Shown here piece by piece: positions 7,623-23,991 of a DNA stretch of 25,047 nucleotides. Origin of the DNA: a virus. Made by a program: the position numbers and the translations under genes. Location: the IMG/VR virus record IMGVR_UViG_3300009537_000160, positions 1 to 25,047 of that record; one strand, given 5' to 3'. Within the stretch, counting starts at the first letter, position 1. Each line of letters begins with the position of its first letter. A model generated the notes under the pieces. It saw only the letters and a list, made by a program, of their open reading frames with translations. It did no database searches and had not been told where the DNA came from.

Positions 7623-7633
7623 GGAGGGGACTC

Positions 7634-7900: not shown

Positions 7901-7914
7901 CTAGGAGGGGCAGC

Positions 7915-8415
7915 ATGAAGAAGAGTCTGTTTCTCCTGGTGGCCGCGCTCCTCTTAGTGGGAATGGGTCATCAGGCTTATGCGTTAAACGCGCCGGCGGA
8001 TACTGCGGAAAATCAGCAGGAGCAGTGGTTCGTCAGCGTGACCAACAATTCGGGAGGCAGCCTGAGCCACGGGCAGACCGTGGTTTGGAATGTCGACTCT
8101 GATTCGGGAGAAGTTCTGGGGGAGAGCGTGAAAACCCAGGCTTCGGCCAACCTGGAGATTGTTGCCGGGGTGGTTCCCGGAGCGCCCTATCTGAACACGC
8201 GCGGTCCTATTTTGGACGGCGAACGGTTTAAAATGCAGATTTGGGGCTATCACGGTTCTGTCGTGTCCGGTGCTTCGGCCGCGGAAGGGCAAGCCTTGGG
8301 AACCGCCGCTGCCTTGGGGGTGGCGGACGACGGAGACGGGTTAGGTGTGGCTTTGGTGGCAGATGCGGGCGGAACGGTTCAAGCCTTCATCAACGTCAAC
8401 GGAGGCGCACTGTAG
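7915..8415 (+). CDS. Signal-peptide-bearing beta protein, possible decoration protein
   Basis: The 166-residue product begins with a classic Sec signal: MKK, a Leu/Ala/Val core, and GHQAYA with likely cleavage after residue 23. The mature part is Gly/Ala/Val/Asp-rich and beta-predicted (WFVSVTNNSGGSLSHGQTVVW, then VAGVVPGAPY and a Gly-rich C-terminus) with no Cys. Its position after the capsid genes is typical of decoration or head-completion proteins, where a signal peptide is unexpected. The start has GGAGGGG upstream. It could instead be an envelope protein expressed late. Secretion is predicted from the sequence, and the virion role is inferred from the operon. Confidence 0.75.
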   Translation: MKKSLFLLVAALLLVGMGHQAYALNAPADTAENQQEQWFVSVTNNSGGSLSHGQTVVWNVDSDSGEVLGESVKTQASANLEIVAGVVPGAPYLNTRGPILDGERFKMQIWGYHGSVVSGASAAEGQALGTAAALGVADDGDGLGVALVADAGGTVQAFINVNGGAL

Positions 8416-8418
8416 TTT

Positions 8419-9441
8419 ATGTGGGTCTGGACACCTTGGGCGGCTTTACTGCTTCCCAAGGTGCCCGACCTTTTTTTGACTCAAACGGCCCTGGCGGCGG
8501 CCACCATCTTGGCGTGGTGGGGCTGGCATTATTATAAAAAGAACCTTCTGGATGTGCCCAAGTGGTGGCAGGCGTTCTTTCTCATAGCGGTTTTACTGCT
8601 TTTAGGCCATTGGTGGAGCGGGCACTTCAACGGGCAGTTCCGGTGGTGGCCTGTCTGGAGCGCGTTTTCACTTCTTTTGTTTACTTTGTGGCTCGCCGTT
8701 CCCCTGGACGTGAAACGGACTTCCCGGTTTATCGCTTGGATGGCGCTCTCGATTTCGCTGCACGTCCTTTTGGCCGAGGCGGGCGGGGTACAGTGGATGA
8801 AAAGCCTGCTTTCCTTCGGTTCGGTGTTCGGCAACCCCACGAATATGGGTGTCTGGCTCGTGCTCACCCTGCCGTGGGTCTGGAAAGCGAGGTTGTTTAA
8901 AGGATGGAGCGTCCTTCCCGTAGGGGCCGCGATTTACTTCAGCCACAGCGCGGCGGCGTACCTCGGGGCGGGATTGGCTTTCGTTTTGGTTATGCCCCGC
9001 AAGTCTTTTCAGATCGGGGCCGCGTGCGCCTTGGCCGCAGCGCTTGGATTCGGGGCCTATGCCCATCCTGATTTTTTCAGCTTGGGGGGGCGGCGGGAAA
9101 TGTGGAGCGCGCTTCCGAGTGTGTGGTACACGCACCACCTGACGGGGATCGGGTTCGGGACGTTCCGCCTGCTTGAGCTTCATAACATCTTCTCCTACAA
9201 CCAGGTGTGGGGGCATCCCTGGAACCTGCTCATCCGGTTAGCGGTGGAAGGGGGAGCCATCGGGGTAATGGGCGCGGTGTGGGGCGCTTGTTACGCGCCC
9301 TGGAAGGCATGGTGGCGGGTGCGGGAGACCCGCATGGCTTTGGTCTTATTTTCTTTAGTCTGTCTTTTAAGCTTGGGCGGAAGCGATTTGACCACGCTTT
9401 TAATCGGCACCTGGTGGATGAATCAAGGAGGCTGGACATGA
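8419..9441 (+). CDS. O-antigen polymerase/ligase-like membrane protein (Wzy/WaaL type)
   Basis: This 340-residue polytopic inner-membrane protein has roughly eight or nine hydrophobic segments and much Trp. Its motif order matches the O-antigen polymerase/ligase superfamily. FGNPTNMGVWL lies at about 137-147 with the family GN(P)-N pattern. A periplasmic-type segment GGRREMW..L at 223-231 runs into HLTGIGFGTF at 240-249, and HPWNLLIRLAVEGGAIG follows at 266-282 (usual pattern R..W, G.G.GtF, HN/H..N, E.G). Family members join or polymerise lipid-linked O-antigen in the periplasm. At 340 residues it is slightly short. It sits three bases after a head gene and shares an ATGA overlap with the next one, so it belongs to the structural operon. 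Confidence 0.75.
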   Translation: MWVWTPWAALLLPKVPDLFLTQTALAAATILAWWGWHYYKKNLLDVPKWWQAFFLIAVLLLLGHWWSGHFNGQFRWWPVWSAFSLLLFTLWLAVPLDVKRTSRFIAWMALSISLHVLLAEAGGVQWMKSLLSFGSVFGNPTNMGVWLVLTLPWVWKARLFKGWSVLPVGAAIYFSHSAAAYLGAGLAFVLVMPRKSFQIGAACALAAALGFGAYAHPDFFSLGGRREMWSALPSVWYTHHLTGIGFGTFRLLELHNIFSYNQVWGHPWNLLIRLAVEGGAIGVMGAVWGACYAPWKAWWRVRETRMALVLFSLVCLLSLGGSDLTTLLIGTWWMNQGGWT

Positions 9442-9785
9442 AGGGAACGATAGGTTTGATTCTTTTATTTTTGCTGTGCGCGTCCCCCGCTTCTGCGGAG
9501 CTTTCCGTGGGCGGGACCCGGATTTCCGAGGACAGCGTCATCGGGCCGAGCGGGAAACCCGTGTTGTTGTACGGCTGGTGCATGGTCTCCGGCGGCACCG
9601 CGGGCCAGGTGATCTTCCGGGACGGCACCTCGACTTCGGGTACGGCGCAGTTGACCGAAAACGGGACCGCGAGCCAGGGCGACACCGATGACCTGGGCGG
9701 CGCGGGCTTGATCTTTCCGAACGGGCTGTTCGCTGATATTGACGCCAATGTGTCTACGCTTGACGTGTATTACAAAAAGCGATAG
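9438..9785 (+). CDS. Exported small beta-sandwich protein, 115 aa
   Basis: ATG 9438 is set by GGAGG a few bases upstream and by the ATGA overlap with the polymerase-like gene. A signal peptide covers residues 1-20 (Leu-rich core, ASPASA, cleavage before ELS). The mature about 95 residues show the pattern of small phage beta-sandwich proteins: strands ending in QVIFRDGTSTSGTAQL, then GLIFPNGLFADIDANVSTLDVYY. I know such sequences as small virion-associated or decoration-like proteins of unknown precise role. The Cys in the signal region is not in a lipobox (LLC rather than AGC/GC). Confidence 0.7.
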   Translation: MKGTIGLILLFLLCASPASAELSVGGTRISEDSVIGPSGKPVLLYGWCMVSGGTAGQVIFRDGTSTSGTAQLTENGTASQGDTDDLGGAGLIFPNGLFADIDANVSTLDVYYKKR

Positions 9786-9794
9786 GAGGACAGA

Positions 9795-9941
9795 ATGGGC
9801 GGAGTGTACGTCAGTTATGGATCGGGTTTGAAGTTTCTCAAAGATTCCAAGGAACATCAAGCGTATCTGAAGACGTTGGGAGTCAAATCGGGAAAGCGGG
9901 CGGATAAAAAAAAGAAGCCCTCCAAGAAAAGGAGGAAGTGA
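9795..9941 (+). CDS. Lys-rich 48-residue protein
   Basis: This short gene begins at ATG 9795, five bases after AGGAGG. Its first half is ordinary (GGVYVSYGSGLKFLKDSKEH) and its end is strongly basic (KSGKRADKKKKPSKKRRK). That end could bind nucleic acid or acidic protein surfaces. It ends one base before the next ATG, with that gene's GGAGGAAG site embedded in its last codons. Function is unknown. Confidence 0.65.
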   Translation: MGGVYVSYGSGLKFLKDSKEHQAYLKTLGVKSGKRADKKKKPSKKRRK

Positions 9942-9942
9942 T

Positions 9943-10242: not shown

Positions 10243-11250
10243 ATGGCGCTTTTTGCAAACCTCGTCGCCCAGGTCAACCGCGACCTGAACAAAGTAGGCG
10301 CGGGAGGTGTTCAGACGACCCAGGCCAAGTTTTGGGTCAACCGTTCCCTTCACACGCTCCGCGGAGAAGCCCGGTGGGCGCCTTTAAGACGCAAACTGAC
10401 CTTAAGCACCGTGGCCTCCCAGGAAGAATACCGCCTGCCCATCGAGTGGGGAGACATAGGGCTTATGTGGCACGAGGGGTTCGGATATCCCTTCACCCTT
10501 GAGAATATCTCAGACCACTCTTTTTACGGCTTCGGGTTTGATCTGGACGTAACAGGCACTCCTAAATTTTACAGGCTTTGGGGCGAGAGCGGGGTCGAAG
10601 CCCAGCCTTCTTCGGCGAGTGTTATCACCGTGGTTTCAAGCGCTTCGAGCGGGGATAATACGCAGACCATCCGTATTCAGGGCATCGTGGGAGGCGTCCC
10701 GGACTTTGAGAATATCTCGCTCAACAACGACACCTCCGTCAACGGAACCAAATCCTTCACGCGCGTGGACCGGATTTCCAAGTCCGGTTCCACCAAGGGC
10801 CGCGTGACGGTAACTTCAAATGCCGCGGCGGTCACTGTGGCGACTTTCCCGGCGGGCGGTATTTATGACAGCTTAAGCTTCTTTTTAATGCAGCTGTGGC
10901 CCATTCCCGACGCAGTGCTCACCCTAAACGCCGAAACCTACCAGCGCGTTTACGACCTGGTGGACGATAACGATGTTTCTCCCTTCGGTCCTGAATTCGA
11001 CCAGGCAATCGTGATTTACGCGGATTACCTGGGCTCCCTTCAGGCCACCGTTACCAACCCCAACGCATCCGTTACCGCGGACGGGTTTTACAAGGCTTAC
11101 CTGCGCGAAGTGTCTCGCCTGAGAAGCCTCTTTGAGCGCAACGAGGACCGGGTGTTCGCCCTCCAGGAACGGGGCACGCCTCAAGCTTCCCGTTCCCGGG
11201 GGAGGGACTTCCTGTCCTTTGGACCCGGCTTTCCGAGGGTTTTTAGGTGA
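10243..11250 (+). CDS. Head-tail adaptor (neck) protein with beta-sandwich insert
   Basis: This 335-residue protein resembles podovirus neck adaptors in its parts: N-terminal helices (FANLVAQVNRDLN, FWVNRSLHTLRGEARWAPL), a strand pair ending YRLPIEWGD near 63-71, and a conserved C-terminal block with LTLNAETYQRVYDLVDDNDVSPFGPEF near 226-252 followed by helices. Between about residues 123 and 203 lies an Ig-like beta-sandwich insert (TQTIRIQGIVGG...ENISLNN...GRVTVTS). Adaptors of this kind bind the portal and close the head. There is no signal peptide and no Cys. It is followed by a four-base GTGA overlap with the tail protein gene. Confidence 0.72.
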   Translation: MALFANLVAQVNRDLNKVGAGGVQTTQAKFWVNRSLHTLRGEARWAPLRRKLTLSTVASQEEYRLPIEWGDIGLMWHEGFGYPFTLENISDHSFYGFGFDLDVTGTPKFYRLWGESGVEAQPSSASVITVVSSASSGDNTQTIRIQGIVGGVPDFENISLNNDTSVNGTKSFTRVDRISKSGSTKGRVTVTSNAAAVTVATFPAGGIYDSLSFFLMQLWPIPDAVLTLNAETYQRVYDLVDDNDVSPFGPEFDQAIVIYADYLGSLQATVTNPNASVTADGFYKAYLREVSRLRSLFERNEDRVFALQERGTPQASRSRGRDFLSFGPGFPRVFR

Positions 11251-12827
11251 GAGGCTTCTCTTTTCTCGCTGGTTTGCTTTTAATCGCTTCGCCGCTTTCG
11301 GCTCAGACGTCAGTTTCCTACGACTTCATCAACAACAACGGCGGCCTGAACACTTCTTCCAGCCCCCTCCAGGTCAAGCCCAACGAATCACCCGATCTTG
11401 CTAACGTCAACCTGACCCCGTTCGGTTCCATTATCAAAAGAAGTGGAAACACCCAACTGAACACTTCCGCTTTTTGCGGCGGGAACAGGTGGACGGGAAT
11501 GTATGATTACGTTCAGAAAGACGGAACTCATTACCTGATCGGCACCTGCGGGACGAAGTTCGGGAAAATGGATTCCCTCGACGGGACGTGGGACGATGTG
11601 ACGGGTTCCGTCACGATCACGGCGGGCAGTCTTTCCGACTTCGCGACCTTTAAAGACACGGTGCTGGTCACCAACGGCACGGACGCGCCGTTTCAATGGA
11701 CGGGTTCGGGCAGTGCCACGGCGATGACCGTTCCCACGGGCCTGACGCAGGCGAAGTTCATCGCTGTGTTTAAAAGCTATGTATTTTTAGCGAACGTGAC
11801 AGTCAGCGGTACAGCCCATCCTTCCCGTTTTTACTGGTCGCACGTGGACACGATTGACACCTGGACCGCAACGGACCTTGATGACATTGAACCCGATAAC
11901 GGCCAGACGATCACGGGCGTTGAAATCCTCGGGGACCGCCTGGTCTTTTACAAGGAGCAGACGATTTACAACACGATGTTCACGGGCGACGCCTTCATTC
12001 CTTTTATCACGCAGAAGTCCGATTCGGATGTGGGGTGCGTTTCAGGGTATTCCGTTCAGAACGTCAAAAATATCCATGTATTCGCCAGCCAGGACGGCAT
12101 CTATATTTATGACGGGGTGATCGCCACCAAGATCAGCGAGCGTATCAACACCGAAATCGATTCCTACAACAAGAACCTGTTCCCCGAAATTTCTTCCGCG
12201 GTATACCGCACGCTGAACCAGGTGTGGTTTACCTACGCCACTTCGGGTTCCTCGCAGACCGACCGCGTCATTATTTGGGACTACTTCCACAACGCCTGGC
12301 TGCGCCATCAGGGTATGGCGGTAAGCGTTCCGGTGCGGGTCTTTACCTCGGGCGGGGTGGAACGGCTTTATTGGGGGGACTACTCGGGGTTCGTGTACCA
12401 GGCGAACAGCGGAACGAAGGACACGCCCGGGGGCACGGATACCGCGATCACGTCTTACTACGTTACCAAGTGGTTTGATTTCGGGGATACGGCGTTTGCA
12501 AAGCGTGTCCCGAATCTTTATCTTTATATGGATGAGGTGGGGGATTATGACCTTTCGGTAAGCATAGCCCGCAATTTCCAGACGGGAACTTTTGAGACCC
12601 TTGCGGTCAGCATGTTTCAATCGGGGGGAATTGTGGGGACGGCGGTTGTCGGGACCGATACCGTGGGCGGTCAGGACGGCCTGGTCCGCAACATCGCCTG
12701 GCCGTCGCCCCTGACGGGGCAATTTTTGAGGTTCCGTTTTGAGAACTCCGTGATTAACGAGCCTTATGAACTGTTCGGGTTCCGGCCCGTGGTCGAGACT
12801 TCGGGGCTCGGGCGGCCCGATTTATGA
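11247..12827 (+). CDS. Putative beta-propeller tail (nozzle-type) protein with signal peptide
   Basis: The 526-residue protein carries the N-terminal signature of podovirus tail-hub/nozzle proteins: NNNGGLNTSSSPLQVKPNES, then a DLANVNLTPFGSIIKRSG stretch (usual pattern GGLN.. P..i..gEs..l.N....p.G.i.+R.G). A long run of repeated beta blades follows (WTGMYDYV, FATFKDTVLVTNG, VFLANV, FYWSHVD, IWDYFHNAWLRH). Unexpectedly it starts with a signal peptide (GTG start, Leu/Ala core, ASPLSA, cleavage before residue 20). Three Cys are present, near residues 77, 101 and 259. The gene overlaps its neighbours by four bases on both sides. Propeller and nozzle assignment comes from pattern and gene order. 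Confidence 0.72.
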   Translation: MRGFSFLAGLLLIASPLSAQTSVSYDFINNNGGLNTSSSPLQVKPNESPDLANVNLTPFGSIIKRSGNTQLNTSAFCGGNRWTGMYDYVQKDGTHYLIGTCGTKFGKMDSLDGTWDDVTGSVTITAGSLSDFATFKDTVLVTNGTDAPFQWTGSGSATAMTVPTGLTQAKFIAVFKSYVFLANVTVSGTAHPSRFYWSHVDTIDTWTATDLDDIEPDNGQTITGVEILGDRLVFYKEQTIYNTMFTGDAFIPFITQKSDSDVGCVSGYSVQNVKNIHVFASQDGIYIYDGVIATKISERINTEIDSYNKNLFPEISSAVYRTLNQVWFTYATSGSSQTDRVIIWDYFHNAWLRHQGMAVSVPVRVFTSGGVERLYWGDYSGFVYQANSGTKDTPGGTDTAITSYYVTKWFDFGDTAFAKRVPNLYLYMDEVGDYDLSVSIARNFQTGTFETLAVSMFQSGGIVGTAVVGTDTVGGQDGLVRNIAWPSPLTGQFLRFRFENSVINEPYELFGFRPVVETSGLGRPDL

Positions 12828-13108
12828 AGTTTCTGACGGGGTTGGCGGCTGGAATTCTGCTCTCGGTGCCCCTGGTTTCTTTCGCGGATTTCGTGGTCAA
12901 GGATTTTCACCTGGAGAACCGCAGAGCGGATTGGTTCCTCGATCAATTAGTGAACCGGGTGAATGATATGACTAAAGTGAGCACCTATACGGTGACGAAC
13001 GGAACCACGGACCGGACGTATGACGCGGACGCGACGGGTACGGCGGAATTGGCGGACGTGCTTTCAACTTTGATCTCGGATTTACAAGGGGCTCAGGTGC
13101 TTAAATGA
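12824..13108 (+). CDS. Exported small tail-region protein, 94 aa
   Basis: A signal peptide spans residues 1-21 (VPLVSFA, cleavage before DF). The mature about 73 residues end in YTVTNGTTDRTYDADATGTAELADVLSTLISDL. That block is frequent in short phage tail proteins or at the N-terminus of fibre proteins, where the usual version has no signal peptide. It has ATGA overlaps with both neighbours, so it is tightly coupled to the tail genes. A role as a fibre adaptor or trimeric connector is plausible but unproven. Confidence 0.7.
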   Translation: MKFLTGLAAGILLSVPLVSFADFVVKDFHLENRRADWFLDQLVNRVNDMTKVSTYTVTNGTTDRTYDADATGTAELADVLSTLISDLQGAQVLK

Positions 13109-13938
13109 AAAGAAATCTTTTGGTTCTGTTTGCGGCTTTGGCTTGGATAAATATGGGCGCGGCTTCGGACTACGTCCGGCAGACGACGTGGAGCACCGGA
13201 GATTTGATTACCGCCAATAAACTGAACGCCGACCCCGATGAGACGGCGCGTATCTTCGGCACCAACTCCAACGGAATAATCGCTAACGGCAACATCGCTT
13301 CGGGTGCCGCGATTGCCGAAAGCAAAATCGCCTTCTCGACCACGGGCCACGATCATGACGGGACGGATGATGCCTGGATTGTCGACGGCCAAGCCAAGCT
13401 TTCCCATGTCACGAGCAATATCTGGACTATCGGGGACGGCAACGACGTGGACCATCGTTTTCGGGTCAACAACGGGGACGCTGCGCTGCCTGAAATCCGT
13501 TACAATGCGACTGACAGTGATTGGGAATTTTCTAATGATGGTTCTACTTTTACAAACATCAGCGCAGCGATTTCCCAGGCTGTCCAGGCCGATATTGAAG
13601 CGGAAACGAATGAAGATACCTATATTCCTCCTGATCTTGTAAAACATTCTCCCGGGGCAGCAAAAGCATGGTGCAGTATTCTCGCGGCTGGAACGCTGGA
13701 AAGCCCAAGCTATAATGTCACAAGTGTTACTGACACAGGGACTGGAGATCGTACCATTGTATGGGCCACTGATTTTTCAGGGGCAGTCTATGTGATGGCA
13801 GCCTCGGTCATGCAGGACACGGAAGTTTTCCCACACTTTGATTCACTGGCTGTGGGAAGCGTCCGGCATGCCATCACCAATTCTTCCAGCACTTTAGTCG
13901 ATATTGCCACTGCCGTAGCCGCTTTTGGAGATCAATAA
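13105..13938 (+). CDS. Tail-fibre-like protein with signal peptide
   Basis: This 277-residue fibre-like protein has an N-terminal hydrophobic signal (MKRN, Leu/Ala core, about residue 20), then W.TGDLITANKLN (29-41), repeated NG/ASG/AESKI turns and GHDHDG at 81-86, all typical of tail-fibre shafts. The C-terminal part (about 160-277) has HSPGAAKAW near 181-189 and YNVTSVTDTGTGD near 203-215, a C-terminal fibre domain I recognise from other phages. Base composition drops sharply near nucleotide 13,500 (residue about 132): 35 of 60 bases are G/C in 13441-13500 against 21 of 60 in 13501-13560. This suggests a mosaic join between shaft and tip. Confidence 0.78.
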   Translation: MKRNLLVLFAALAWINMGAASDYVRQTTWSTGDLITANKLNADPDETARIFGTNSNGIIANGNIASGAAIAESKIAFSTTGHDHDGTDDAWIVDGQAKLSHVTSNIWTIGDGNDVDHRFRVNNGDAALPEIRYNATDSDWEFSNDGSTFTNISAAISQAVQADIEAETNEDTYIPPDLVKHSPGAAKAWCSILAAGTLESPSYNVTSVTDTGTGDRTIVWATDFSGAVYVMAASVMQDTEVFPHFDSLAVGSVRHAITNSSSTLVDIATAVAAFGDQ

Positions 13939-13939
13939 C

Positions 13940-14533
13940 ATGAAACATTTTTTCATACTTCCACTCTTTCTACTCCTTGCCTTTTCCGTTCAGGCCCAAG
14001 AGTGTGCTATTTTTACGACTGCAGACGGAAAGGTAGGCCGTGTTACCTTTGATTCTCAATCTGCTCAATCTAAGACCGAAGTGATCCGAGCATCTATCAA
14101 AGCGGTCAATAAAAGTATTATGGGAAACGCCTTTGATCCCGTAGTTCATTTAGACCATGTGCCCTTTACATTGTTGGATGACTCTCAACTCCCCATGTGG
14201 TTCAGAGGGGACGCAACGGTGAAAGATCGCTTTGAAAACTTTCGTGACGCGGCTGAATGGGATGGCGTGAAAATCAAGATCAATATGGACAAAGCGAAAA
14301 TCATCCATCGGGACCGGATTTTAAAAGCGCAATCCTATGAGTTAAAAAGACTTAAGAACGATTTCATAGATGCGCTTCAAGTCGGGGATACGGTGGAGCA
14401 GAACCGGTTGAGCACGCTTTCGCAGAAAGTGAAAAACGCTCAGATACCAGATATGTCTCAGGTGACTACGGTGAGCGAGTTGAATGCTGTGTGGCCCGCG
14501 GATGTGCCACCAGACCCGGATGCGCCCCAGTAG
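13940..14533 (+). CDS. Exported protein of unknown function, 197 aa
   Basis: I start at ATG 13940, nine bases after GGAG, which gives a clean signal peptide (MKHFFILPLF, then SVQA, cleavage before QE). The mature part begins ECAIF and is mixed alpha/beta, with several helices (KTEVIRASIKAVNK, SYELKRLKNDFIDAL, NRLSTLSQKVKNA). It ends in an acidic proline tail. No family is recognised. GC is low compared with most of the window (24 of 60 in 14041-14100), continuing the dip that begins inside the fibre gene. It may be a fibre chaperone or a receptor-related accessory brought in with the fibre tip, which is inference. Confidence 0.68.
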   Translation: MKHFFILPLFLLLAFSVQAQECAIFTTADGKVGRVTFDSQSAQSKTEVIRASIKAVNKSIMGNAFDPVVHLDHVPFTLLDDSQLPMWFRGDATVKDRFENFRDAAEWDGVKIKINMDKAKIIHRDRILKAQSYELKRLKNDFIDALQVGDTVEQNRLSTLSQKVKNAQIPDMSQVTTVSELNAVWPADVPPDPDAPQ

Positions 14534-14556
14534 ATACGGGGTTCATTTTTGAAATC

Positions 14557-14859
14557 ATGCGTTTTGAAAACGATCCGAAAGACCACGGCACGCGGCTGAA
14601 CTATTATGAAGAGGGCGTTCAGAAAGGCACTTTGGTATATGACTGGGTCACCTCGCTTCTGGACATCTGGCTCTGTGACCACAAGGGCGTAAAAACGAAG
14701 GGAGACGTTTTGTACATTTCCGACCTTGAAATTGAACCGGGAGACCCGAAAAGAATCTGGCGGTTCAAGAAAATGCTTCCGAGACACCAATGGATTTGCG
14801 GTTTGAAGGATAAAACGTATTTAATCGCACCGTATGGGCTTCCCGAGGGCTTCATCTAA
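14557..14859 (+). CDS. Hypothetical protein, 100 aa
   Basis: This soluble protein of unknown function starts MRFENDPKDHG and contains YEEGVQKGTLVYDWVTSLLDIW, VLYISDLEIEPGDPKRIWRFKKM and a Gly/Pro C-terminus. The ATG at 14557 lacks a strong ribosome site. A GTG at 14491 in the same frame would overlap the preceding gene and add a Cys/Pro-rich, unlikely N-terminus. Its stop overlaps the next ATG by one base (TAATG). GC returns to about half here (30 of 60 in 14581-14640). Confidence 0.55.
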   Translation: MRFENDPKDHGTRLNYYEEGVQKGTLVYDWVTSLLDIWLCDHKGVKTKGDVLYISDLEIEPGDPKRIWRFKKMLPRHQWICGLKDKTYLIAPYGLPEGFI

Positions 14860-15842
14860 TGGGTTCTAAAAACGTTGTTCAACCGACCCCACCGACTTTT
14901 CCAGAGCCTTCTGCTGAGGAACGGGAACAGCAGACGCTTATCAATGAATTCCTGAGGACCAATATCCCCTTAGAGACCCAGTTGCGCCAGCAGGAATTGG
15001 AGCAGGTGTCTCCCGTTTTGACAGCGGCACGCAAGAAGGAAGCGGAGCAGTTTTTAGAGCTGGCGCCCGAGCTTCAAAAAACACGCAGGGCGGAACTGGG
15101 GTTCCTGACGCCCATTCTTCAAGGCCAGGCCCCCACGGGCATCTTCGGGCAGTTGACTCAACCGGTTCAGGAAAGCGCTGCTTTTGAACGTAACCGCAAA
15201 AGGCTGATGACTTCTCTGGCCAGCGCGGGGCTTTTGGACAGTGGCATCCGCGCGGAACTTGAAAAAGACCTGGCGGTTGAAACGGCGGCAGCAACCCAGG
15301 CAACGGAACAGGCTAATCTTTTTAACCTGCTCCAAATCGCTCTAGGCGGTACGGGCAGCGCCCTCGGACGGGGGATTTCACCCATCCTGGGAGGGCCGGG
15401 GGTCATCGCTCCGGGTCAGACCACAGGCCAGCTCGCCCAGGGAATTCAGCAGTTTCAGGCCCCAAGAATGGCCCAGGCAGGATTCCAGCAGCAAATCTTC
15501 CAAGGTCAACTCGAAGCGGCTACCGCGGAACGGGCTTCGCGCCGCAAGATGATCTCTGATATTTTCGGAAGCATTGGAAGTATTGGAAGTATGGGAGCTA
15601 CGTCGGCAATGATGTGTTGGGTCGCTTCCGAAATCTTTGGAGGCTGGTTCGCGCCTAAAACAATTCAGGCACGGTGTTATATCACGTATCTAGCGCCTCC
15701 CTGGTTCAGGAATTTTTACATCCGGCACGGAGAAAAAATGGCTCACTTCATTTCAAACAAACCCCTCTTGAAAATCCTTTTGAGACCGCTCTTTGAATAC
15801 TTTGCCTGGCGAGGGCGTTTAGAACAGGTGACCCATGCCTAA
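14859..15842 (+). CDS. Internal virion/ejection-type protein, 327 aa
   Basis: This is a Gln/Glu/Ala-rich, mainly helical protein with coiled-coil-like segments (residues about 20-70 and 110-160), then Gly-rich stretches and a small GSIGSIGSMG repeat encoded by three 9-base units at 15567-15593. Its C-terminal about 75 residues begin MCWVASEIFGG near 252 and continue with LAPPWFRNFYIRHGEKMAHFI and KPLLKILLRPLFEYF. I recognise this CWVA.E..G...P.W..Y..HGE.+A.FI..KP.LK domain from the ends of phage internal or tail proteins. No signal peptide is present. It is probably packaged in or under the neck and ejected with DNA. Confidence 0.68.
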   Translation: MGSKNVVQPTPPTFPEPSAEEREQQTLINEFLRTNIPLETQLRQQELEQVSPVLTAARKKEAEQFLELAPELQKTRRAELGFLTPILQGQAPTGIFGQLTQPVQESAAFERNRKRLMTSLASAGLLDSGIRAELEKDLAVETAAATQATEQANLFNLLQIALGGTGSALGRGISPILGGPGVIAPGQTTGQLAQGIQQFQAPRMAQAGFQQQIFQGQLEAATAERASRRKMISDIFGSIGSIGSMGATSAMMCWVASEIFGGWFAPKTIQARCYITYLAPPWFRNFYIRHGEKMAHFISNKPLLKILLRPLFEYFAWRGRLEQVTHA

Positions 15843-16713
15843 CGATCAAAGAAATGTTTTCGCCCAGCTGATTCAACTCGCGGCTTCCGCCTATAAAGCC
15901 GATGAGCGCAAGCAGAAAAGCCTCGAAGAAGCGAAAGTGCTGGGTGAGCAATATGTAAACGAACCCATGCAAGGGTTGGTTCAGGGAATGGGCGGGGGCG
16001 CTCAAGGTGCTTTGGACGTGGGGGGGGTTTCACTCGGCGCGGGCGCGGCGAAGCGATCTCCCCGGGAGATGCTCTCCGCGGCGCTTCAGGGCGCTCTCGC
16101 GGGCGCGGGCGCTCCATTTCAGGCGGGCCGCCTGGGCGCGGAATCCTTGTTTCCGTCCCAAGCTGTGGCGGCTCCTGAAGTGCCCACAGAGCCTACGGAT
16201 ACAACGGAACCCCGTTCCCGTCTTTCCCAGGCGTTAAGAATGTTGTTTTCGCCTGCCGCGTTTAAAATCGGCGCGCCGCTCGCGTTGGCCAAGTTCGGGG
16301 GAGAGACGGGCCTTGCGGCGGGGGCGGGGCTGGCTAAAGGCTTCGCGGACACCGCCAAAGAGAAACGGGAAGCGGCGGCGGAAGCGAAGAAGAGAGAATT
16401 GACGGATAAAGACCTGTTGGAACTTTCTACCAAGTCCGTAGACCCTCTCGGCACGCCCGAAGAAAAAGCGGCTCAGATACAATCCAACTTTGAAACCTTG
16501 AAAGCCCTGGCGGAGCAGCTGCGCGCCAAGCCCGAAGCGAGCACCAAGGCGATCCAGGAGAAGATTCAGGAGTTTACGGGACAGCAAACCGGTGCTTTCG
16601 CGGCCCGGAGGAAGAAAGCCGAACAAGCGGCGGCGTTTGCGTCTCAGCTCACTCAAGAAGGCGTTTCAGCGGAAGAAGCCAAGCGCCGCGCCAAGGCGAA
16701 GTTCGGACTGTAA
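15835..16713 (+). CDS. Internal virion-type protein, Ala-rich, 292 aa
   Basis: The product is very rich in Ala, Gly, Lys and Glu. An N-terminal helix (VFAQLIQLAASAYKADE) is followed by a Gly/Ala-rich central region with two weakly hydrophobic helices (about 50-110 and 145-175, including APLALAKFGGETGLAAGAGLA). A charged coiled-coil C-terminus follows (about 175-290). Amphipathic Gly/Ala segments of this sort are common in ejection proteins that cross the host membrane. The family is not firmly recognised. It overlaps the previous gene by eight bases and lies three bases before the giant internal protein. Confidence 0.62.
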   Translation: MPNDQRNVFAQLIQLAASAYKADERKQKSLEEAKVLGEQYVNEPMQGLVQGMGGGAQGALDVGGVSLGAGAAKRSPREMLSAALQGALAGAGAPFQAGRLGAESLFPSQAVAAPEVPTEPTDTTEPRSRLSQALRMLFSPAAFKIGAPLALAKFGGETGLAAGAGLAKGFADTAKEKREAAAEAKKRELTDKDLLELSTKSVDPLGTPEEKAAQIQSNFETLKALAEQLRAKPEASTKAIQEKIQEFTGQQTGAFAARRKKAEQAAAFASQLTQEGVSAEEAKRRAKAKFGL

Positions 16714-16716
16714 GGC

Positions 16717-19700
16717 ATGGCTCAAACTTTTACCGCCGAGGATTTTTTAGATACGAAAGCGCCTGCATTTACCGCCGAGGACTTTCTTCCGAAATCCGCT
16801 CCCCAAACCTTCACCGCCGAAGATTTTCTCCCTCAACAACCTACTGTGTTTACTTCCAGCGATTTTATGACGTCCCGGGACCGGAAGTTCCAGACAAACT
16901 TCGGAGCGTGGATGGACCGTCTCCTGAGAACCCAGTACGCTTCGGCCAACACCGCGCGGGAATTCCTTGCCGCGGCCCGGGAAGGACGGGACCCCGATGT
17001 CTCAGGAGCCATCCGCAGGGGGCTGACGGGCGAGGAGAAAGGTTCCTATAGCCAGGTTTTGGAAGATATGGGTGCCGGGGGAGTGCCTGCCTCGGTGCTG
17101 GGGTTCGTGGGAGACGTGGTTTTCGACCCCCTGACGTATCTTGGAGGGCCTATTTTGAAGGCGGGGACTAAAGGGGTCAAACTGACCGCCCAGGGTGCCG
17201 TAAAAATTCCCGAAGTGGGAAAAGTGGTTTCCACCGCTCAGAAAGCTTTGGAACCCATTACCACCGCGTACAGGAGGTTGTTTGGGACAACCACGGGAAT
17301 TAAACCTTTGGATGACTTGATGCGTTCTCATAACCTTAATGCGCGGTTTAAGATAGGAGAAGCTTATCAAAAAGGATATAAGATACGGTCCCTGGTGGAA
17401 AGGATGGCCAAGCGGTCCGGGAAAACAGTGGAGGACATCGGGAAAGAAGCAGCAAACACCGTGGAAGCTCTCGGGGGCAGGCAAAAAATCAGCGTGATGA
17501 AAGTAACCCCTGAAGGTAAAACCATCCAGGTTTTAAAAGACGTTCCTATGGATTTGCCCCAGGTGAGCGACAAAGCGGTGTTACCTTTAGCGCGCACCCT
17601 CCGTTCCATGTTTGACACCCAGCTTTCCAAAGAAATCAAGGCAGGCGTTCAAGTCGCGGCCCTGGGGACGGGGCGCAGCGTGCGGGTTCAGGAGATACGC
17701 CGCGCTTTAAACGTGATTCGCGTCCGCACGCAAAAGGAATTGGGGAACGCGCGCCAGGTTTTAAAACGGTCCTTGGAGGAACTCGACCGCATTTCGGTCA
17801 CCAAGCAAAAGAAGGCCATTACGTCCGAAGCCGAGGCGTTGAAGGTCCGCGCGCAGTTGGTCAACAAAAACAAAGTCAAGGAGCTGATCGCGCGCACGGA
17901 TTCCCTGAACGAGCAGTTGAACCTTTTAGAACAGCAAAAGCTGATTGCGCGCCAGAAAGGGCTTCCTTTTAAAGCGATTGAACGCAAAATCGCCCGGCGT
18001 GAAAACGATTACTGGTATCATACGGGAGAGTTGGCCGAACGCCTCCAAGATATCCCCGAACTCGCCGAAGGAAGCCGCTTTATCGCGAGGATTCAATCTT
18101 TGGAGGATGCCTTGAAACAGGTGGAACCGATTCGGGGACAAGCGGGATTGTCTTTGGAGCGGCGCTTGGATTTAGCGGAGGCCGCCGAAGCGGTTCCGAA
18201 AGGCGTCAGAGCCCGTTCGCTGTTTCGGGAAATCACGGAACTCCGGGCCAAGCGGGAACTCGGTTACTTTCCCCGCATTACGACGGAAGAAGCCAAGCAC
18301 TACCTGAAAAAAGCCCACATCGGAAGCCGGAAGGTCTGGAACCCGAAGCTGGCAAACGCGCTCAAGCGCCGGACGGAAGATTTTACCTTGGAAGAATGGA
18401 ACCAGTTCGCCCGGGAGAACGGGATTGAAAGCCTGGGGGGAAACAGCGTCGAGAACTTCTTTGTCTCCCATCCCGCGTATGCGACCGCGACGCGCCTGGC
18501 GCGCGGCGAACGGGCCATATCCCATTCCGAATTTTTAATGGACGCCGCTCAAAAGTTCGGGGTGAAGGCCGAAGAGGCCGTGACGGGTATGGTCGAAGCC
18601 CCCGAAGCGTTGATTAAACTGGTTCCGAGCCTGCGGGGAAGATTCTTTGAACCCGGTGTTTTGGATGAAATCACGCGGGTCCATGAAGCGTTTTTTAACC
18701 CCAAGACGGCTAAAGATTTTATTCAAACTTATGACAAATGGCACAACGCCTGGAAGTTATGGACCCTCGCTCCTTTTCCGGCGTATCACTTCAGAAACGC
18801 GGTGGGAAATGTTTGGAACAACTATCTCGCGGGGGTGGTGGACCCGCGGGTCTACAACGAGGCCCGGCGCCTTCAGGTCTTGGCTGCCAAGGGGCTCTTA
18901 AAAGGTGAAGATGCGAAAATCTTCAGAATAGCCCGTGAACTCGGAGTCGTGGACATTGACCGTTTTGTCATGGAGCAGTTTACCGGAAGGCCCACAGACA
19001 TGCTGTGGGAGCGCGTGGTGGGGGAGAACCGGGTAATTAACCTCGGTAAAAGAATAGGGAACGCTGTCGAGAACAACGCGCGCCTGGCGCATTTTCTGGA
19101 TAAGACGGGCAAAGGGTTTTCCCCGGACGCCGCCGCCCAATCCGTCAAGCGGTATCTTTTCGATTACCTTGACTTGACTCCTTTTGAACAAAACGTGATG
19201 AAACGCCTGGCGCCGTTTTACACCTGGAGCCGGAAGAACATCCCCTTGCAGGCCCAGGAGCTGTTCCGGCAGCCCATGAAGTATGTCGGCATCGAGAAAC
19301 TAAGGCGGGGGTTCAGCGGGGAGCAGGAAATACCAGAAGACATAAGTCTTCTGAAACGCACCCGTCCCTTTCTCTACGAATCGCTTCCCATCCGGGCAGG
19401 AAAGACCAAGGGAGGCATCGCGACCTTCTTTCCCTTGGAGACCTGGATTCCCGCGGCAGACCTGGCAAAGCTTTTCCGGCCGGGGGAGATTATTCTGGAG
19501 CAGATGACCCCTCTTCTGAAAGCGCCTTTGGAACAGGCGGCCAACTACAGCTTCTTTTTCGAGAAGCCCATTCAGGAGTTCCCGGAGCAGAGACGTTTGT
19601 TTCTCGGGCTTGATCTTCCCCCGCGCGTGCATCACCTCTTATACAATTTCAGAGTTTTAACCGAAGTGAACCGGATGCTCACGCCGTCCCAAGGCCGCCC

Positions 19701-19911
19701 CGAAGATTTGACTGGGTTTGAAAAGATGGTCAGACTTTTTACGGGGATTAAACTTTACCGCTTTAACGTGTCGGAATTGAGGCACCAGGTCAGAACCGAG
19801 CTTATCCGGGAACGGTCTTTAATCAAACGCGAAATGCGGCGGGCGAAACGCCAGGGCCGGAACAAGGAAGCTCAGCGGTTGAGGGAAGCTTTGCATGAAA
19901 CCCGGAATTAG
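16717..19911 (+). CDS. Large internal virion (ejection-type) protein, 1064 aa
   Basis: The longest gene encodes a polyvalent, mostly helical protein. Residues 4-51 contain four copies of an FTAEDFL-type motif (starting at 5, 18, 32 and 45, the last as FTSSDFM). A FDPLTYLG segment (136-143) follows a Gly-rich linker, with long coiled-coil stretches at about 330-460. Near residues 688-709 lies FRNAVGNVWNNYLAGVVDP, and at about 815-852 DYLDLTPFEQNVMKRL followed by PFYTWSRKNIPLQ. These blocks are known from large phage proteins of internal-virion or polyvalent type, often adjacent to podovirus tail genes. No Cys, signal peptide or protease motif was seen. It probably forms part of a DNA-translocation channel on infection. 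Confidence 0.75.
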   Translation: MAQTFTAEDFLDTKAPAFTAEDFLPKSAPQTFTAEDFLPQQPTVFTSSDFMTSRDRKFQTNFGAWMDRLLRTQYASANTAREFLAAAREGRDPDVSGAIRRGLTGEEKGSYSQVLEDMGAGGVPASVLGFVGDVVFDPLTYLGGPILKAGTKGVKLTAQGAVKIPEVGKVVSTAQKALEPITTAYRRLFGTTTGIKPLDDLMRSHNLNARFKIGEAYQKGYKIRSLVERMAKRSGKTVEDIGKEAANTVEALGGRQKISVMKVTPEGKTIQVLKDVPMDLPQVSDKAVLPLARTLRSMFDTQLSKEIKAGVQVAALGTGRSVRVQEIRRALNVIRVRTQKELGNARQVLKRSLEELDRISVTKQKKAITSEAEALKVRAQLVNKNKVKELIARTDSLNEQLNLLEQQKLIARQKGLPFKAIERKIARRENDYWYHTGELAERLQDIPELAEGSRFIARIQSLEDALKQVEPIRGQAGLSLERRLDLAEAAEAVPKGVRARSLFREITELRAKRELGYFPRITTEEAKHYLKKAHIGSRKVWNPKLANALKRRTEDFTLEEWNQFARENGIESLGGNSVENFFVSHPAYATATRLARGERAISHSEFLMDAAQKFGVKAEEAVTGMVEAPEALIKLVPSLRGRFFEPGVLDEITRVHEAFFNPKTAKDFIQTYDKWHNAWKLWTLAPFPAYHFRNAVGNVWNNYLAGVVDPRVYNEARRLQVLAAKGLLKGEDAKIFRIARELGVVDIDRFVMEQFTGRPTDMLWERVVGENRVINLGKRIGNAVENNARLAHFLDKTGKGFSPDAAAQSVKRYLFDYLDLTPFEQNVMKRLAPFYTWSRKNIPLQAQELFRQPMKYVGIEKLRRGFSGEQEIPEDISLLKRTRPFLYESLPIRAGKTKGGIATFFPLETWIPAADLAKLFRPGEIILEQMTPLLKAPLEQAANYSFFFEKPIQEFPEQRRLFLGLDLPPRVHHLLYNFRVLTEVNRMLTPSQGRPEDLTGFEKMVRLFTGIKLYRFNVSELRHQVRTELIRERSLIKREMRRAKRQGRNKEAQRLREALHETRN

Positions 19912-20054
19912 TCCCTCATCCAATCCATGTAACGGCCGCCCGACTGATGAGGCCGTCCGTAATCGGGCGCGTTTTTACGCTGGTTCATAAACCACAGTAG
20001 GAAAAGGGCCGAGAGGAGCAAGCCGATGACCAGGTTCCGAGTTTCCTTGTCCAT
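19908..20054 (-). CDS. Possible leftward 48-residue membrane protein
   Basis: Reading leftward from ATG at 20054, the product is DKETRNLVI followed by a clear transmembrane helix (LLLSALFLLWFM, within about 7-23) and a polar tail ending GGRYMDWMRD. It fills the otherwise empty gap between 19911 and 20026, overlaps the large gene's end by four bases and the next gene's start by 29. There is no ribosome site before the ATG, and it runs against the late transcript. If real it could be a holin-like or regulatory membrane peptide. The protein-like sequence is the only support. Confidence 0.35.
   Translation of the reverse strand: MDKETRNLVIGLLLSALFLLWFMNQRKNAPDYGRPHQSGGRYMDWMRD
19937..19976 (+). 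terminator. Possible rho-independent terminator
   Basis: A seven-base stem, CGCCCGA at 19937-19943 and TCGGGCG at 19963-19969, is followed by CG and TTTTT at 19972-19976. It lies about 25 bases after the large internal-protein gene. The loop is long (19 bases) and the stem short, so termination would be partial at best. The same bases also code part of the leftward small frame 19908-20054, so the palindrome may be incidental. Confidence 0.4.
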
Positions 20055-20349
20055 AGGGTTTATGATACTTTTCCTGATGCTTCCCGTCAAGGCATGGGCG
20101 ACCACTTCCACTCAGGTTTCCTGCACTTCGACTTCCTCTACGGTGCTGAGTCCCGACAGTTCCAGGAAGGTGGCTGTTTACCTTAATCAAAGCACGACAG
20201 ACGCTTACGTCTGCTGGGCGGCAACCTGCACGACCGCATTAGGAACCCGTTTCCAGGAAAACCAAGGCTTTGTGACCGAGCAGTATAAAGGCGTCATCAC
20301 CTGTATCACGTCAAGCGGAACCGCAACATTGGGTATTTATGCGCAGTAA
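20026..20349 (+). CDS. Exported Cys-rich small protein, 107 aa
   Basis: The N-terminal signal (MTRFRV, a long Ile/Leu/Phe core, VKAWA, cleavage after about residue 25) is followed by an about 82-residue beta-rich mature part. It has four Cys: one in QVSC, two in YVCWAATC and one in VITC. An even number of Cys in a predicted periplasmic protein fits two disulfides. The Thr/Ser-rich pattern with RKVAVYLNQSTTDAYV and YKGVITCI resembles small phage surface proteins of the adhesin-base or decoration type. GAGGAG at 20013 supports the start. The end overlaps the fibre gene by 11 bases. Confidence 0.7.
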   Translation: MTRFRVSLSIGFMILFLMLPVKAWATTSTQVSCTSTSSTVLSPDSSRKVAVYLNQSTTDAYVCWAATCTTALGTRFQENQGFVTEQYKGVITCITSSGTATLGIYAQ

Positions 20350-21982: not shown

Positions 21983-21998
21983 TTACCAGGAGGTTCAA

Positions 21999-22289
21999 AT
22001 GAAAACTATGGGAGTTGCCGTACTGCTTTTTGTTTTGATGGGTCTGCCCTATGCGGAGGCCGTAACCTTCACAGTCCGCGTGGACGACGCGTCCGCAAAG
22101 ACGACCTTGAAGGAGGCGTGCGCGTCTTTCGGGGCGTTTTCCCTGACCGATGCAGACTGCCAGGCGCGTATTCAGGAGGAACTGGTGAACACCGTGCGTT
22201 TGTGGGTGACCCAGGGACGGGACGCGCTGGTTTTTAAGAACGAGAAAGATTCAACGGCATCGGATGTGAATGTGAAGGTCACGCCCTGA
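21999..22289 (+). CDS. Exported small protein, 96 aa
   Basis: The protein has a signal peptide (MKTMGVAVLL core, PYAEA, cleavage near residue 21). A mature domain of about 75 residues follows, starting VTFTVRVDDASAKTTLKEAC, with a second Cys in TDADCQARI, then an amphipathic helix and a C-terminal VNVKV strand. The two mature Cys could pair in the periplasm. A textbook AGGAGG lies before ATG 21999. The stop overlaps the next start by one base (TGATG). No family is recognised. Confidence 0.65.
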   Translation: MKTMGVAVLLFVLMGLPYAEAVTFTVRVDDASAKTTLKEACASFGAFSLTDADCQARIQEELVNTVRLWVTQGRDALVFKNEKDSTASDVNVKVTP

Positions 22290-22318
22290 TGAGGCGAAAT
22301 AACGCCCTGATGAGGCGA
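22281..22318 (+). repeat. 17-base tandem duplication over a start codon
   Basis: ACGCCCTGATGAGGCGA occurs at 22281-22297 and again at 22302-22318, separated by four bases. Each copy contains the TGATG stop/start overlap, so the downstream gene has two identical in-frame start contexts, ATG 22289 and ATG 22310. The 21-base period keeps the frame. Confidence 0.95.
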
Positions 22319-23032
22319 TCCCTGGTTTTAGCGGGAAGCCTGTGGTTTGTCCTGACGGGGACGGCCCAGGCCGCGGTTGCCCAAGCCTCTGGGCAGACCA
22401 AGCAGGGAGCCGCGTCTTCGAGCGCCACGTCCCTTCAAATCACCTTCCCGCAGAACGTGGTGTCGGGCAACACGGTGGTCTGCGGGGCGAAATACCGCAA
22501 TGGAACCCCCTCGTTCAGTGACAGTTTAGGGAACACCTGGGCGACTGATATTAACGATCCTAATAATGACATGGGAACGATGATCGGAAGCATCAAGAGC
22601 ATTACGAACGCCGGGAGCATGACGGTGACGTTCGGAACGACCACCTCCGCAACTAAAATCGGTCTTTCCTGCATGGAGTATTCCGGGTTTACGGGCGGGG
22701 CCGCGCTCGATCAGAGTAATACCAGCACGGGGTCGGGCACGGCGTTTTCGAGCGGTTCGGTTACGACCACAGCGGCCAATGAACTCCTGTTTTGCGCGGT
22801 GTCGGATTCGTTTAATGGCACTCCCTACTCCTGGACGAGTTCTTTTACGCTTCTCACGGAAGGCGCCAGCGGTACCAGCCGCGCCAGCTTCGCCGACCGT
22901 ATTGTGACCTCGACCGGAACTTACACCGCAACGGCCACGATGAGTTCAACGGCCAATTATCGCAGTACGATTGCGACCTACAAGGAAGTGGGAGGAGGCG
23001 GTGCGGCCCGCCGGGTATTCGTGGTGCATTGA
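22310..23032 (+). CDS. Exported adhesin-like beta-sandwich protein
   Basis: The start could be ATG 22289 (247 residues) or ATG 22310 (240 residues) because a 21-base duplication has copied the start. The shorter form gives the cleaner signal peptide (MRRSLVLAGS, then TGTAQA, cleavage after about 21). The mature protein is Ser/Thr/Gly-rich and beta-predicted: TFPQNVVSGNTVVCGAKY, FSDSLGNTW, KIGLSCMEYSGF, ANELLFCAVSD. This pattern is known from secreted surface or phage appendage domains with a DS.GNtW motif and a C.EYSG strand. Three Cys are present. It probably forms a fibre or appendage head domain. Function is inferred from pattern and location only. Confidence 0.65.
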   Translation: MRRSLVLAGSLWFVLTGTAQAAVAQASGQTKQGAASSSATSLQITFPQNVVSGNTVVCGAKYRNGTPSFSDSLGNTWATDINDPNNDMGTMIGSIKSITNAGSMTVTFGTTTSATKIGLSCMEYSGFTGGAALDQSNTSTGSGTAFSSGSVTTTAANELLFCAVSDSFNGTPYSWTSSFTLLTEGASGTSRASFADRIVTSTGTYTATATMSSTANYRSTIATYKEVGGGGAARRVFVVH

Positions 23033-23283
23033 TGAGCGTCTGGCTTAAGAACGGGGTGGTCGTAGGGCTTATCGGGTTAGCCGCCGTGTTCCCCTTCCGC
23101 ATGAACGCGGTCGAGAAGAAGGCGGATGAAACCGGGAAGAAGGTCGAAGCGGTACAAACCGAGCAGGTGGAATTCGAGAAGTACGTCATCGAACAACGGG
23201 CGTTCAATGAAAAGATCACAGACCGTTCCGACCTCCAGTACGAGAGCCTGAAATCTCTCATAGAGGTTTTGAAGGAGAAATGA
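23032..23283 (+). CDS. Small membrane protein with coiled coil, 83 aa
   Basis: One transmembrane helix lies at about residues 7-21 (NGVVVGLIGLAAVF). A long charged coiled-coil-like segment (about 26-80, Glu/Lys-rich) follows. An N-terminal anchor followed by a coiled coil is the layout of i-spanin-type lysis proteins, but the same layout occurs in unrelated small membrane proteins. The start is ATG 23032 (a TTG three bases earlier is possible) in a TGATG overlap. It is the first of three consecutive tiny membrane proteins. Confidence 0.6.
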   Translation: MSVWLKNGVVVGLIGLAAVFPFRMNAVEKKADETGKKVEAVQTEQVEFEKYVIEQRAFNEKITDRSDLQYESLKSLIEVLKEK

Positions 23284-23522
23284 CACGGAGCATCCATGCG
23301 CGTATTAACGGGGTGGGAATTTGGATGCGGTTTGTTACGCCACTCCTCATAGGAATCCTCTTGATGATGGGAAACATGATCTTGGGACGATTGGCAAGTT
23401 TAGAGGTGGCTATCAGCCAGTTGAATGGGGCTTTAAGTAATCATCTCCAGCACGACGTCTCCGAACTCAGGGAGCGTTTGGCCCGGATTGAAGAACGCCT
23501 CCCTGCAAGAAAGGCCCCATGA
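23280..23522 (+). CDS. Small membrane protein with coiled coil, 80 aa
   Basis: A basic N-terminus (MTRSIHARINGVG) precedes one transmembrane helix (about 17-36, PLLIGILLMMGNMIL). An amphipathic coiled-coil tail follows (LASLEVAISQLNGALSNHL, then SELRERLARIEERL). It could be an i-spanin-like partner or a membrane-bound scaffold of the lysis cassette. It has four-base ATGA overlaps with both neighbours. No sequence family is recognised. Confidence 0.6.
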   Translation: MTRSIHARINGVGIWMRFVTPLLIGILLMMGNMILGRLASLEVAISQLNGALSNHLQHDVSELRERLARIEERLPARKAP

Positions 23523-23725
23523 CCTTTCCCGACTTGACGCATTTAGCGTTTACCCGAAGGCTGATTGCGTTAGGGGTTACGTTCACGTCCTGCGCGGGCT
23601 TCCTGCAGGGCAAAGTCCCCGCCGAGGCGTTCATCGCGCTCGTCTCCATGATTATCACGTTTTATTTCACGAAAGCCCAGGTCAACGAATTGCTGCGCAG
23701 TGAAAACAAGGAGGAACTCAAATGA
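23519..23725 (+). CDS. Holin-like two-span membrane protein, 68 aa
   Basis: Two hydrophobic segments, about residues 13-29 (RRLIALGVTFTSCAGF) and 34-51 (AEAFIALVSMIITFYF), are joined by a short Gly/Lys/Pro turn, with a charged C-terminal tail (RSENKEELK). Size and hairpin topology match class II-type holins, which make pores in the inner membrane at lysis. Its place after two coiled-coil membrane proteins supports a lysis cassette, but no endolysin was recognised nearby. ATGA overlaps link it to both neighbours. Confidence 0.6.
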   Translation: MTFPDLTHLAFTRRLIALGVTFTSCAGFLQGKVPAEAFIALVSMIITFYFTKAQVNELLRSENKEELK

Positions 23726-23991
23726 AGTGGATCAGTGTGTTGTTTGTCGGACTGCTCTTGTGTGCCCCGCTCGCGTGGGCGGGGGACTTTGACGACTTCT
23801 TCGATGAAGGCGTGCGGGGCAACAGCTTCGGCGTTCAGGTAGACGCCCCTAACCTCGTGAAAGTCGCAGGGGTCGCGGTGGGCGCGGAAGTCACTAAAGA
23901 TTTAAGGCAGGAGCGGTGGGAAGGGTACACCCTGCTTGCTAAAGTGACCCTGCCCTGGACGGTGCTGGATTTCACGAAAAAGGGTGAATAG
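23722..23991 (+). CDS. Exported small protein, 89 aa
   Basis: The protein has a clear signal peptide (residues 1-20, WISVLFVG core, PLAWA, cleavage before GDFDDFF). The short mature part begins acidic and continues NSFGVQVDAPNLVKVAGVAVGAEVTKDL, ending in WTVLDFTKKGE. The signal-region Cys is not in a lipobox. Function is unknown. It shares an ATGA junction with the holin-like gene and precedes the DUF1353 gene by a few bases. Confidence 0.62.
   Translation: MKWISVLFVGLLLCAPLAWAGDFDDFFDEGVRGNSFGVQVDAPNLVKVAGVAVGAEVTKDLRQERWEGYTLLAKVTLPWTVLDFTKKGE

Follow-up and report, generated by a model that had tools for sequence, protein, structure and literature searches.

In the textbook view, tailed phages are put together entirely within the cytoplasm; the coat proteins of filamentous phages, which are non-tailed and extruded through the membrane, are made with Sec leaders. 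The linear IMG/VR virus record IMGVR_UViG_3300009537_000160 (here "the window", i.e., the whole analysed stretch of 25,047 bases, in which 33 genes were counted) shares with filamentous phages the possession of Sec leaders on virion proteins, but it belongs to a group of double-stranded DNA tailed podoviruses. Its late region encodes a tail nozzle with a Sec-type leader and, beside the capsid gene, a membrane protein of the Wzy_C (WaaL/Wzy/PglL) superfamily. In this group of uncultured phages, leaders occur on outer parts of the particle (nozzle, fibres and a protein encoded next to the capsid gene), and the nozzle leader is found only in phages that also carry Wzy_C, which suggests that these parts are exported so that sugars can be attached outside the cytoplasm. 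A search of the open-licence literature found no description of tailed-phage structural proteins with Sec leaders.

Relatives of Wzy_C transfer glycans from a lipid carrier to acceptors at the periplasmic face of the membrane, and virion glycosylation by the glycosyltransferases of mycobacteriophages is cytoplasmic. Bacterial PglL genes usually adjoin the gene of an exported target (PMC3643930), and the present locus resembles PglL and PilO/TfpO in that a PF04932 membrane protein, from a family of periplasmic-face enzymes, is encoded beside a protein predicted to be exported through Sec; it differs from them in being phage-encoded, with proposed targets that are tail- or capsid-associated, in lacking PglL_A and in missing a conserved histidine in four of 11 members. 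The O-antigen ligase WaaL (PDB 7tpg) is the sole PDB match of our phage-family profile (E-value 3e-6) and the top Foldseek match of the AlphaFold model of the window protein, a poor model (predicted local distance difference test, pLDDT, 53) that lends weak support, but the acceptor proposed here is a protein rather than lipid A-core and the gene lies in a virion operon. Wzy_C is likewise phage-encoded in D3 and VarioGold, as a seroconversion O-antigen polymerase or ligase, and the phage Wzy_C genes described so far (e.g., that of VarioGold) sit in surface-conversion clusters (PMC9658991); that of VarioGold lies in a separately oriented, moron-like cluster, whereas that of the window lies beside the capsid gene. 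Virion glycosylation is also known in mycobacteriophages (Freeman 2023, as cited in PMC11256854), with which the window would share a phage-encoded modification of virion proteins; there, the modification is attributed to phage glycosyltransferases, without export.

Sec leaders in the window and its relatives

The original prediction had placed Sec leaders on eleven late proteins, and all eleven open reading frames (ORFs) are present with those starts. We scored N-termini by a cleavage-site weight matrix (PWM) together with the hydrophobic core and the charge of the n-region, training the scorer on 36 leaders of E. coli proteins, of which 30 pass when left out in turn. Substrates of Sec and signal peptidase I (SPase I) have a basic n-region, an uncharged hydrophobic core and small residues at positions -3 and -1. 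By these features, the strict call is made for eight of the eleven (those starting at 7915, 9438, 11247, 12824, 13940, 20339, 22310 and 23722) and three are borderline: 13105, 20026 and 21999 possess n- and h-regions and are leader-like, but fall below the strict threshold for the cleavage site or the score. The remaining 22 genes of the window all fail the strict call. In leaderless related phages the strict call is made for 20 of 1511 ORFs (1.3%), and at this background rate the probability of at least eight strict calls among 33 genes is 1e-8, so that a chance origin of the leaders was rejected. The eleven proteins are as follows (a slash marks the predicted cleavage).

7915..8415, plus strand: capsid-adjacent protein with Sec leader; strict, PWM 13.9, AYA/L
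9438..9785, plus strand: 115-aa protein with Sec leader; strict, PWM 15.0, ASA/E
11247..12827, plus strand: tail nozzle (stabilisation protein) with Sec leader; strict; phrog_3287, E-value 3e-47; behind the SU10-type adaptor
12824..13108, plus strand: small protein directly 3' of the nozzle, with Sec leader; strict, PWM 12.7
13105..13938, plus strand: fibre-like protein with leader-like N-terminus; phrog_11355, E-value 2e-6; N-terminal domain common to leaderless fibres
13940..14533, plus strand: 197-aa protein with Sec leader; strict, PWM 13.6, VQA/Q; phrog_20196 (a family of unknown function), E-value 6e-7
20026..20349, plus strand: 107-aa protein with leader-like N-terminus and four cysteines; AWA/T, h-region 2.8, charge +2, under the strict score
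20339..21982, plus strand: distal fibre-like protein with Sec leader; strict, PWM 14.7, AHA/D; phrog_21412, E-value 9e-4; related to leadered proteins of relative L020
21999..22289, plus strand: 96-aa protein with leader-like N-terminus; AEA/V, PWM 6.5, under the strict cut-off
22310..23032, plus strand: 240-aa protein with Sec leader; strict, PWM 12.4, AQA/A
23722..23991, plus strand: 89-aa protein in a lysis-like region, with Sec leader; strict, PWM 14.2, AWA/G

The nozzle assignment of the 11247 protein is solid, as judged from its profile match, and those of 13105 and 20339 as fibres are less secure. The 7915 protein, whose AlphaFold model is poor (pLDDT 47), is a candidate exported capsid-decorating protein, and profile searches gave no known role for the proteins at 12824, 13940, 20026, 21999, 22310 and 23722.

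If the nozzle leader were an artefact of annotation, a start codon would be expected between it and the conserved domain. Translation starts at the GTG at 11247, which overlaps the adaptor stop, and the stretch from leader to conserved domain contains no ATG or GTG and a single TTG, which lies inside the hydrophobic core; a wrong start codon was therefore rejected. By eye, the nozzle has an A-x-A-like site (LSA/Q), and the scorer places the cleavage two residues downstream. The start of the 9438 gene overlaps the upstream stop as ATGA, and a GTG sits just past its leader. By all these sequence features the leaders of the window are genuine Sec/SPase I signal peptides, and the proteins that bear them would be exported and cleaved.

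When viral contigs were scanned with the nozzle, capsid and terminase proteins as single queries, no relatives were recovered, so that profiles were needed; these yielded partly overlapping sets of 33, 66 and 8 nozzle loci, plus one in a contig of a metagenome-assembled genome (MAG). Besides the window, leadered nozzles occur in 12 further contigs (given by our L numbers) that form two groups, the first comprising L020, L021, L024, L074, L077, L085 and L119 and the second L031, L035, L113, L114 and L115. Under a permissive test, a leader was called on the nozzle in 12 of 12 of these loci and in 0 of 79 others, and the next large gene after the nozzle is leadered in 12 of 12 as against one of 62 leaderless loci, the one being an internal-start artefact. 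In these relatives, leaders are carried by the capsid-adjacent protein, the nozzle, the fibres and, in the first group, the small post-nozzle protein, and are absent from the capsid, portal, scaffold-like, adaptor and ejection proteins. Six members of the first group (L020, L024, L074, L077, L085 and L119) encode both a leadered counterpart of 7915, adjoining Wzy_C, and a leadered protein of 92-107 aa at the position of 12824. The sequences of the leaders diverge, with A-x-A-like sites and short n-regions retained. One of these relatives, L119 (JASEHY010000001.1), comes from a MAG assigned to the Planctomycetota, where it forms a 30-kb contig, which may be a clue to the host or a mis-binned virus.

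Several of the same proteins exist without leaders. All 79 leaderless nozzle homologues start at the conserved domain; the leaderless homologues of 9438 (35-45% identical; L059, L064, L066, L069, L086, L093 and L094) start at the cleavage site of the window protein, as do those of 7915 (L086_5842 and L093_4292, profile E-value 1e-5); that of 20026 (L066, 33%) begins at the mature start; and leaderless fibres adjacent to the nozzle share the N-terminal domain of 13105, starting at the window's cleavage position. Because the leaderless homologues begin where the leaders end, sequence comparison establishes the leaders as add-ons, gained by or lost from ordinary virion proteins. The original prediction had listed leaderless homologues with downstream starts among the findings that would refute it: such homologues exist, but they come from phages without Wzy_C, and with no start after its leader the window nozzle is not called into question. 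The routing of virion proteins through Sec is strongly supported both by this toggling and by the recurrence of leaders on the same genes in the 12 further contigs.

The Wzy_C gene and its slot

The genes that matter for what follows lie at the capsid end of the operon.

6645..7622, plus strand: major capsid protein, leaderless; phrog_9953, E-value 1e-56; 39-42% identical to the capsid proteins of leaderless L086, L089, L093, L094 and L095
7634..7900, plus strand: 88-aa protein between the capsid gene and 7915, leaderless; identified by synteny, with a 77-79-aa gene at the same position in L086, L089 and L093
8419..9441, plus strand: polytopic Wzy_C membrane protein, of a family with 8-10 transmembrane (TM) segments; PF04932, E-value 2e-6, 21.9 bits, below the curated cut-off

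The product of 8419..9441 is proposed as a candidate periplasmic O-glycosyltransferase. Its counterparts exceed the curated PF04932 cut-off in nine relatives (L020, L024, L031, L035, L074, L085, L113, L114 and L119), and those of the window and L077 score under it; against a phage profile of five relatives, four of them over the Pfam cut-off, the window protein scores an hhalign probability of 95%. Wzy_C is thus present in these 11 of the 13 leadered records, the other two being fragments of 4-6 kb that end short of its position, and none of 104 virus records with leaderless nozzles has it, MaAM05 being left out. That 105th leaderless record has one Wzy_C match, about 39 kb from its nozzle homologue. 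MaAM05 (L002; MW495066, Microcystis phage MaAM05) is 274 kb long, has the bacterial housekeeping genes ftsH, proS, lepA and pgcA around the nozzle homologue and is probably a bacterial contig.

On the nozzle tree, the leader state changes at least three times, all of the changes forced by well-supported (starred) branches, and the presence of Wzy_C agrees with leader state in three of three independent pairs; phylogenetically naive P values for this association are not to be trusted. The tree does not distinguish a gain of the window leader from a loss in its 27 leaderless sisters. A membrane protein that accompanies every leadered nozzle for which the region is covered is a likely reason for export, and one that the original prediction missed.

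Wherever a record contains the whole region, the order is capsid gene, leadered protein and then, directly, Wzy_C; as in PglL-like systems, the gene of a predicted exported protein lies immediately upstream. The second (L031) group has a capsid protein without evident likeness to that of the window and yet keeps this order, from which it follows that the arrangement crosses lineages.

What occupies the slot in leaderless phages is the main reason for reading the coupling as glycosylation. Four of these (L086, L089, L093 and L095), whose capsid proteins, at 40-42%, are among the most similar to that of the window, have the capsid gene, a leaderless 7915 homologue (a profile match in L086 and L093; in L089 and L095, assigned from its place and its resemblance in sequence) and then, in place of Wzy_C, glycosyltransferase and methyltransferase genes. 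These genes are Pfam-confirmed in L093; L089 and (below cut-off) L086 have GT2 matches, and in L095 the assignment is by resemblance. The first three have the additional 77-79-aa gene after the capsid gene, and no sequence match was detectable between it and the window's 88-aa protein, which corresponds to it by synteny only. In L094 (capsid 39%), no glycosyltransferase or methyltransferase gene was found in the slot. Across 46 records, GT2 (PF00535) exceeds its cut-off in none of the 9 that are leadered and in 21 of the 37 that are leaderless. The leaderless relatives L124 (MW202524) and L081 also have blocks of genes for glycosyltransferases and methyltransferases between their capsid and adaptor genes.

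A proposed pathway and its alternatives

We propose that Sec leaders would send the outer, late-added parts (7915, the nozzle, the small nozzle-adjacent protein and the fibres) across the inner membrane, where SPase I would remove the leaders, and that the capsid, portal, adaptor and ejection proteins would remain in the cytoplasm. At the periplasmic face, the phage Wzy_C enzyme (8419-9441) would move a lipid-linked glycan onto the exported virion proteins (O-glycosylation), and adaptor-bearing, DNA-filled heads would then receive the glycosylated nozzle, fibres and 7915 protein in the periplasm or after lysis opens the inner membrane. If nozzle and fibres indeed cross the membrane first, final assembly has to occur in the periplasm or at lysis; tail parts can join heads outside the cell, as is known for P22 and T4 from complementation in vitro. 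Periplasmic export was among the options raised by the original prediction, and it fits. We assign export, O-glycosylation by Wzy_C and late joining to heads an about even probability (roughly 0.5). The broader claim, that this is a lineage-crossing module of tailed phages that completes the particle outside the cytoplasm and replaces a cytoplasmic glycosylation encoded in the same slot, is put forward tentatively, at slightly under even odds. If true, export-first assembly of nozzle and fibres would be a pathway without known description in the open literature. The exchange between cytoplasmic glycosyltransferases and Wzy_C, with nozzle leaders only in the Wzy_C state, opens virion glycosylation to direct testing and offers a genome signature by which exported virion proteins could be located elsewhere.

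Sequence comparison establishes the leaders, their toggling between homologues, their association with Wzy_C and the exchange in the slot; passage through Sec, removal of the leaders, glycan transfer and late joining are inferred from these. Several observations weigh against the proposal. With only three independent state changes, a sign test of the association cannot reach significance. Comparison of the residues needed in WaaL and PglL (R215, R288 and H338 in E. coli WaaL numbering) across the 11 Wzy_C members found the equivalent of R288 kept in 10, but that of H338 in only seven (lost in L077, L085, L119 and the window, which has W) and that of R215 basic in only five and lost in six. The PglL-specific PglL_A (PF15864) had no match at E-values up to 1 in the eleven family members, and the Ser/Thr content of mature leadered nozzles is not raised, so that their composition bears no glycosylation signature. 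In addition, some phages that lack Wzy_C and have leaderless nozzles (L019/L022, L064, L070/L071, L080/L081, L082 and L090) carry leadered distal fibres or small proteins; Wzy_C is therefore not required for every leadered protein, and leadered fibres are spread more widely than the leadered-nozzle system. One of these phages, L070, which has three leader-like fibre proteins, encodes just upstream of the adaptor (7375-8802) a 475-aa protein with about 8 TM segments, GT-C-like by eye and without a Pfam or NCBIfam match.

The eroded catalytic residues, in several members including that of the window, and the Wzy_C-less phages with leadered distal fibres would be accommodated if distal parts were exported for the sake of periplasmic assembly itself (protease protection, disulphides or lysis timing), with the Wzy_C-like protein acting as an assembly or docking factor. 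The leadered set does coincide with the distal, late-added parts. We nonetheless consider this unlikely, in that it explains neither the glycosyltransferases in the same slot nor why the associated membrane protein should come from a glycan-transferring family, and leadered nozzles are poorer rather than richer in cysteine, i.e., they bear no disulphide signature. They are also richer in acidic residues, which is unexplained.

Somewhat less likely still is that Wzy_C serves as an O-antigen polymerase or ligase and, in the manner of phage D3, changes the host surface so as to prevent superinfection, the leaders being unrelated to it. The window protein does belong to the WaaL/Wzy superfamily, and known phage Wzy_C proteins (VarioGold, D3) have been interpreted in this way (PMC9658991), but the present gene lies inside the structural operon beside the capsid gene, not in a moron cluster or lysogenic-conversion region, and it tracks nozzle leaders perfectly; moreover, a tyrosine integrase was found in 0 of 9 leader-bearing records, of which the window and some others are incomplete.

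That the N-termini remain uncleaved, as membrane anchors or membrane-active segments of the virion, is improbable: long cores and weak cleavage sites occur in a few (20026, L021 and L035), but in most leaders the A-x-A-like site is clear and the n-region is short, as in SPase I substrates, features that persist while the leader sequence diverges. About as improbable, if not slightly more so, is that some leadered proteins are secreted surface or exclusion proteins rather than virion parts, for although six lack a structural match, relatives carry leaderless members of the nozzle, nozzle-adjacent fibre, 7915 and 9438 families in their structural operons. The decoy or exclusion role entertained in the original prediction was rejected, as a sole explanation, for the nozzle, a core tail part on which it gives no account of a leader.

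Remaining genes of the window

The rest of the late region, assigned by Pfam and phrog profile matches, is that of a podovirus, with terminase, portal, capsid protein, adaptor and nozzle genes.

818..2602, plus strand: terminase large subunit, leaderless; phrog_38, E-value 2e-59
2595..4469, plus strand: portal protein (SU10/P22 type), leaderless; PF23899, E-value 5e-11, and PF16510
10243..11250, plus strand: head-tail adaptor (SU10 type), leaderless as in all relatives inspected; PF24175, E-value 4e-8
14859..19911, plus strand: three large proteins (starts 14859, 15835 and 16717), ejection- or internal virion-like by position and weak matches, leaderless

Portal (PF23899/PF16510), adaptor (PF24175) and nozzle (phrog_3287) within one structural operon make up an SU10/P22-like podovirus tail module. 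The protein at 14859 matches phrog_21132 ('DNA ejection') with an E-value of 7e-4, and a comparable leaderless trio occurs in leader-bearing relatives. Deposited phages are only distantly related to the window (e.g., its capsid protein is 34% identical to that of Mx8). The family phrog_5107, which is labelled 'amidase', matches nozzle/stabilisation proteins in L085 and L114, and the label, which Mx8 p52 bears as well, looks wrong.

The contig begins with a short repeated unit at 1-70 (RKDKL repeats in one frame), perhaps an assembly artefact. The proteins at 23029, 23280 and 23519 have a hydrophobic N-terminus alone and are lysis- or spanin-like rather than Sec substrates. The sole clear gene on the minus strand (24659-24892), at the contig end, encodes a 77-aa excisionase-like helix-turn-helix protein. 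After the lysis-like genes lies a DUF1353 protein (23996-24397), 42% identical to its counterpart in the leadered relative L114.

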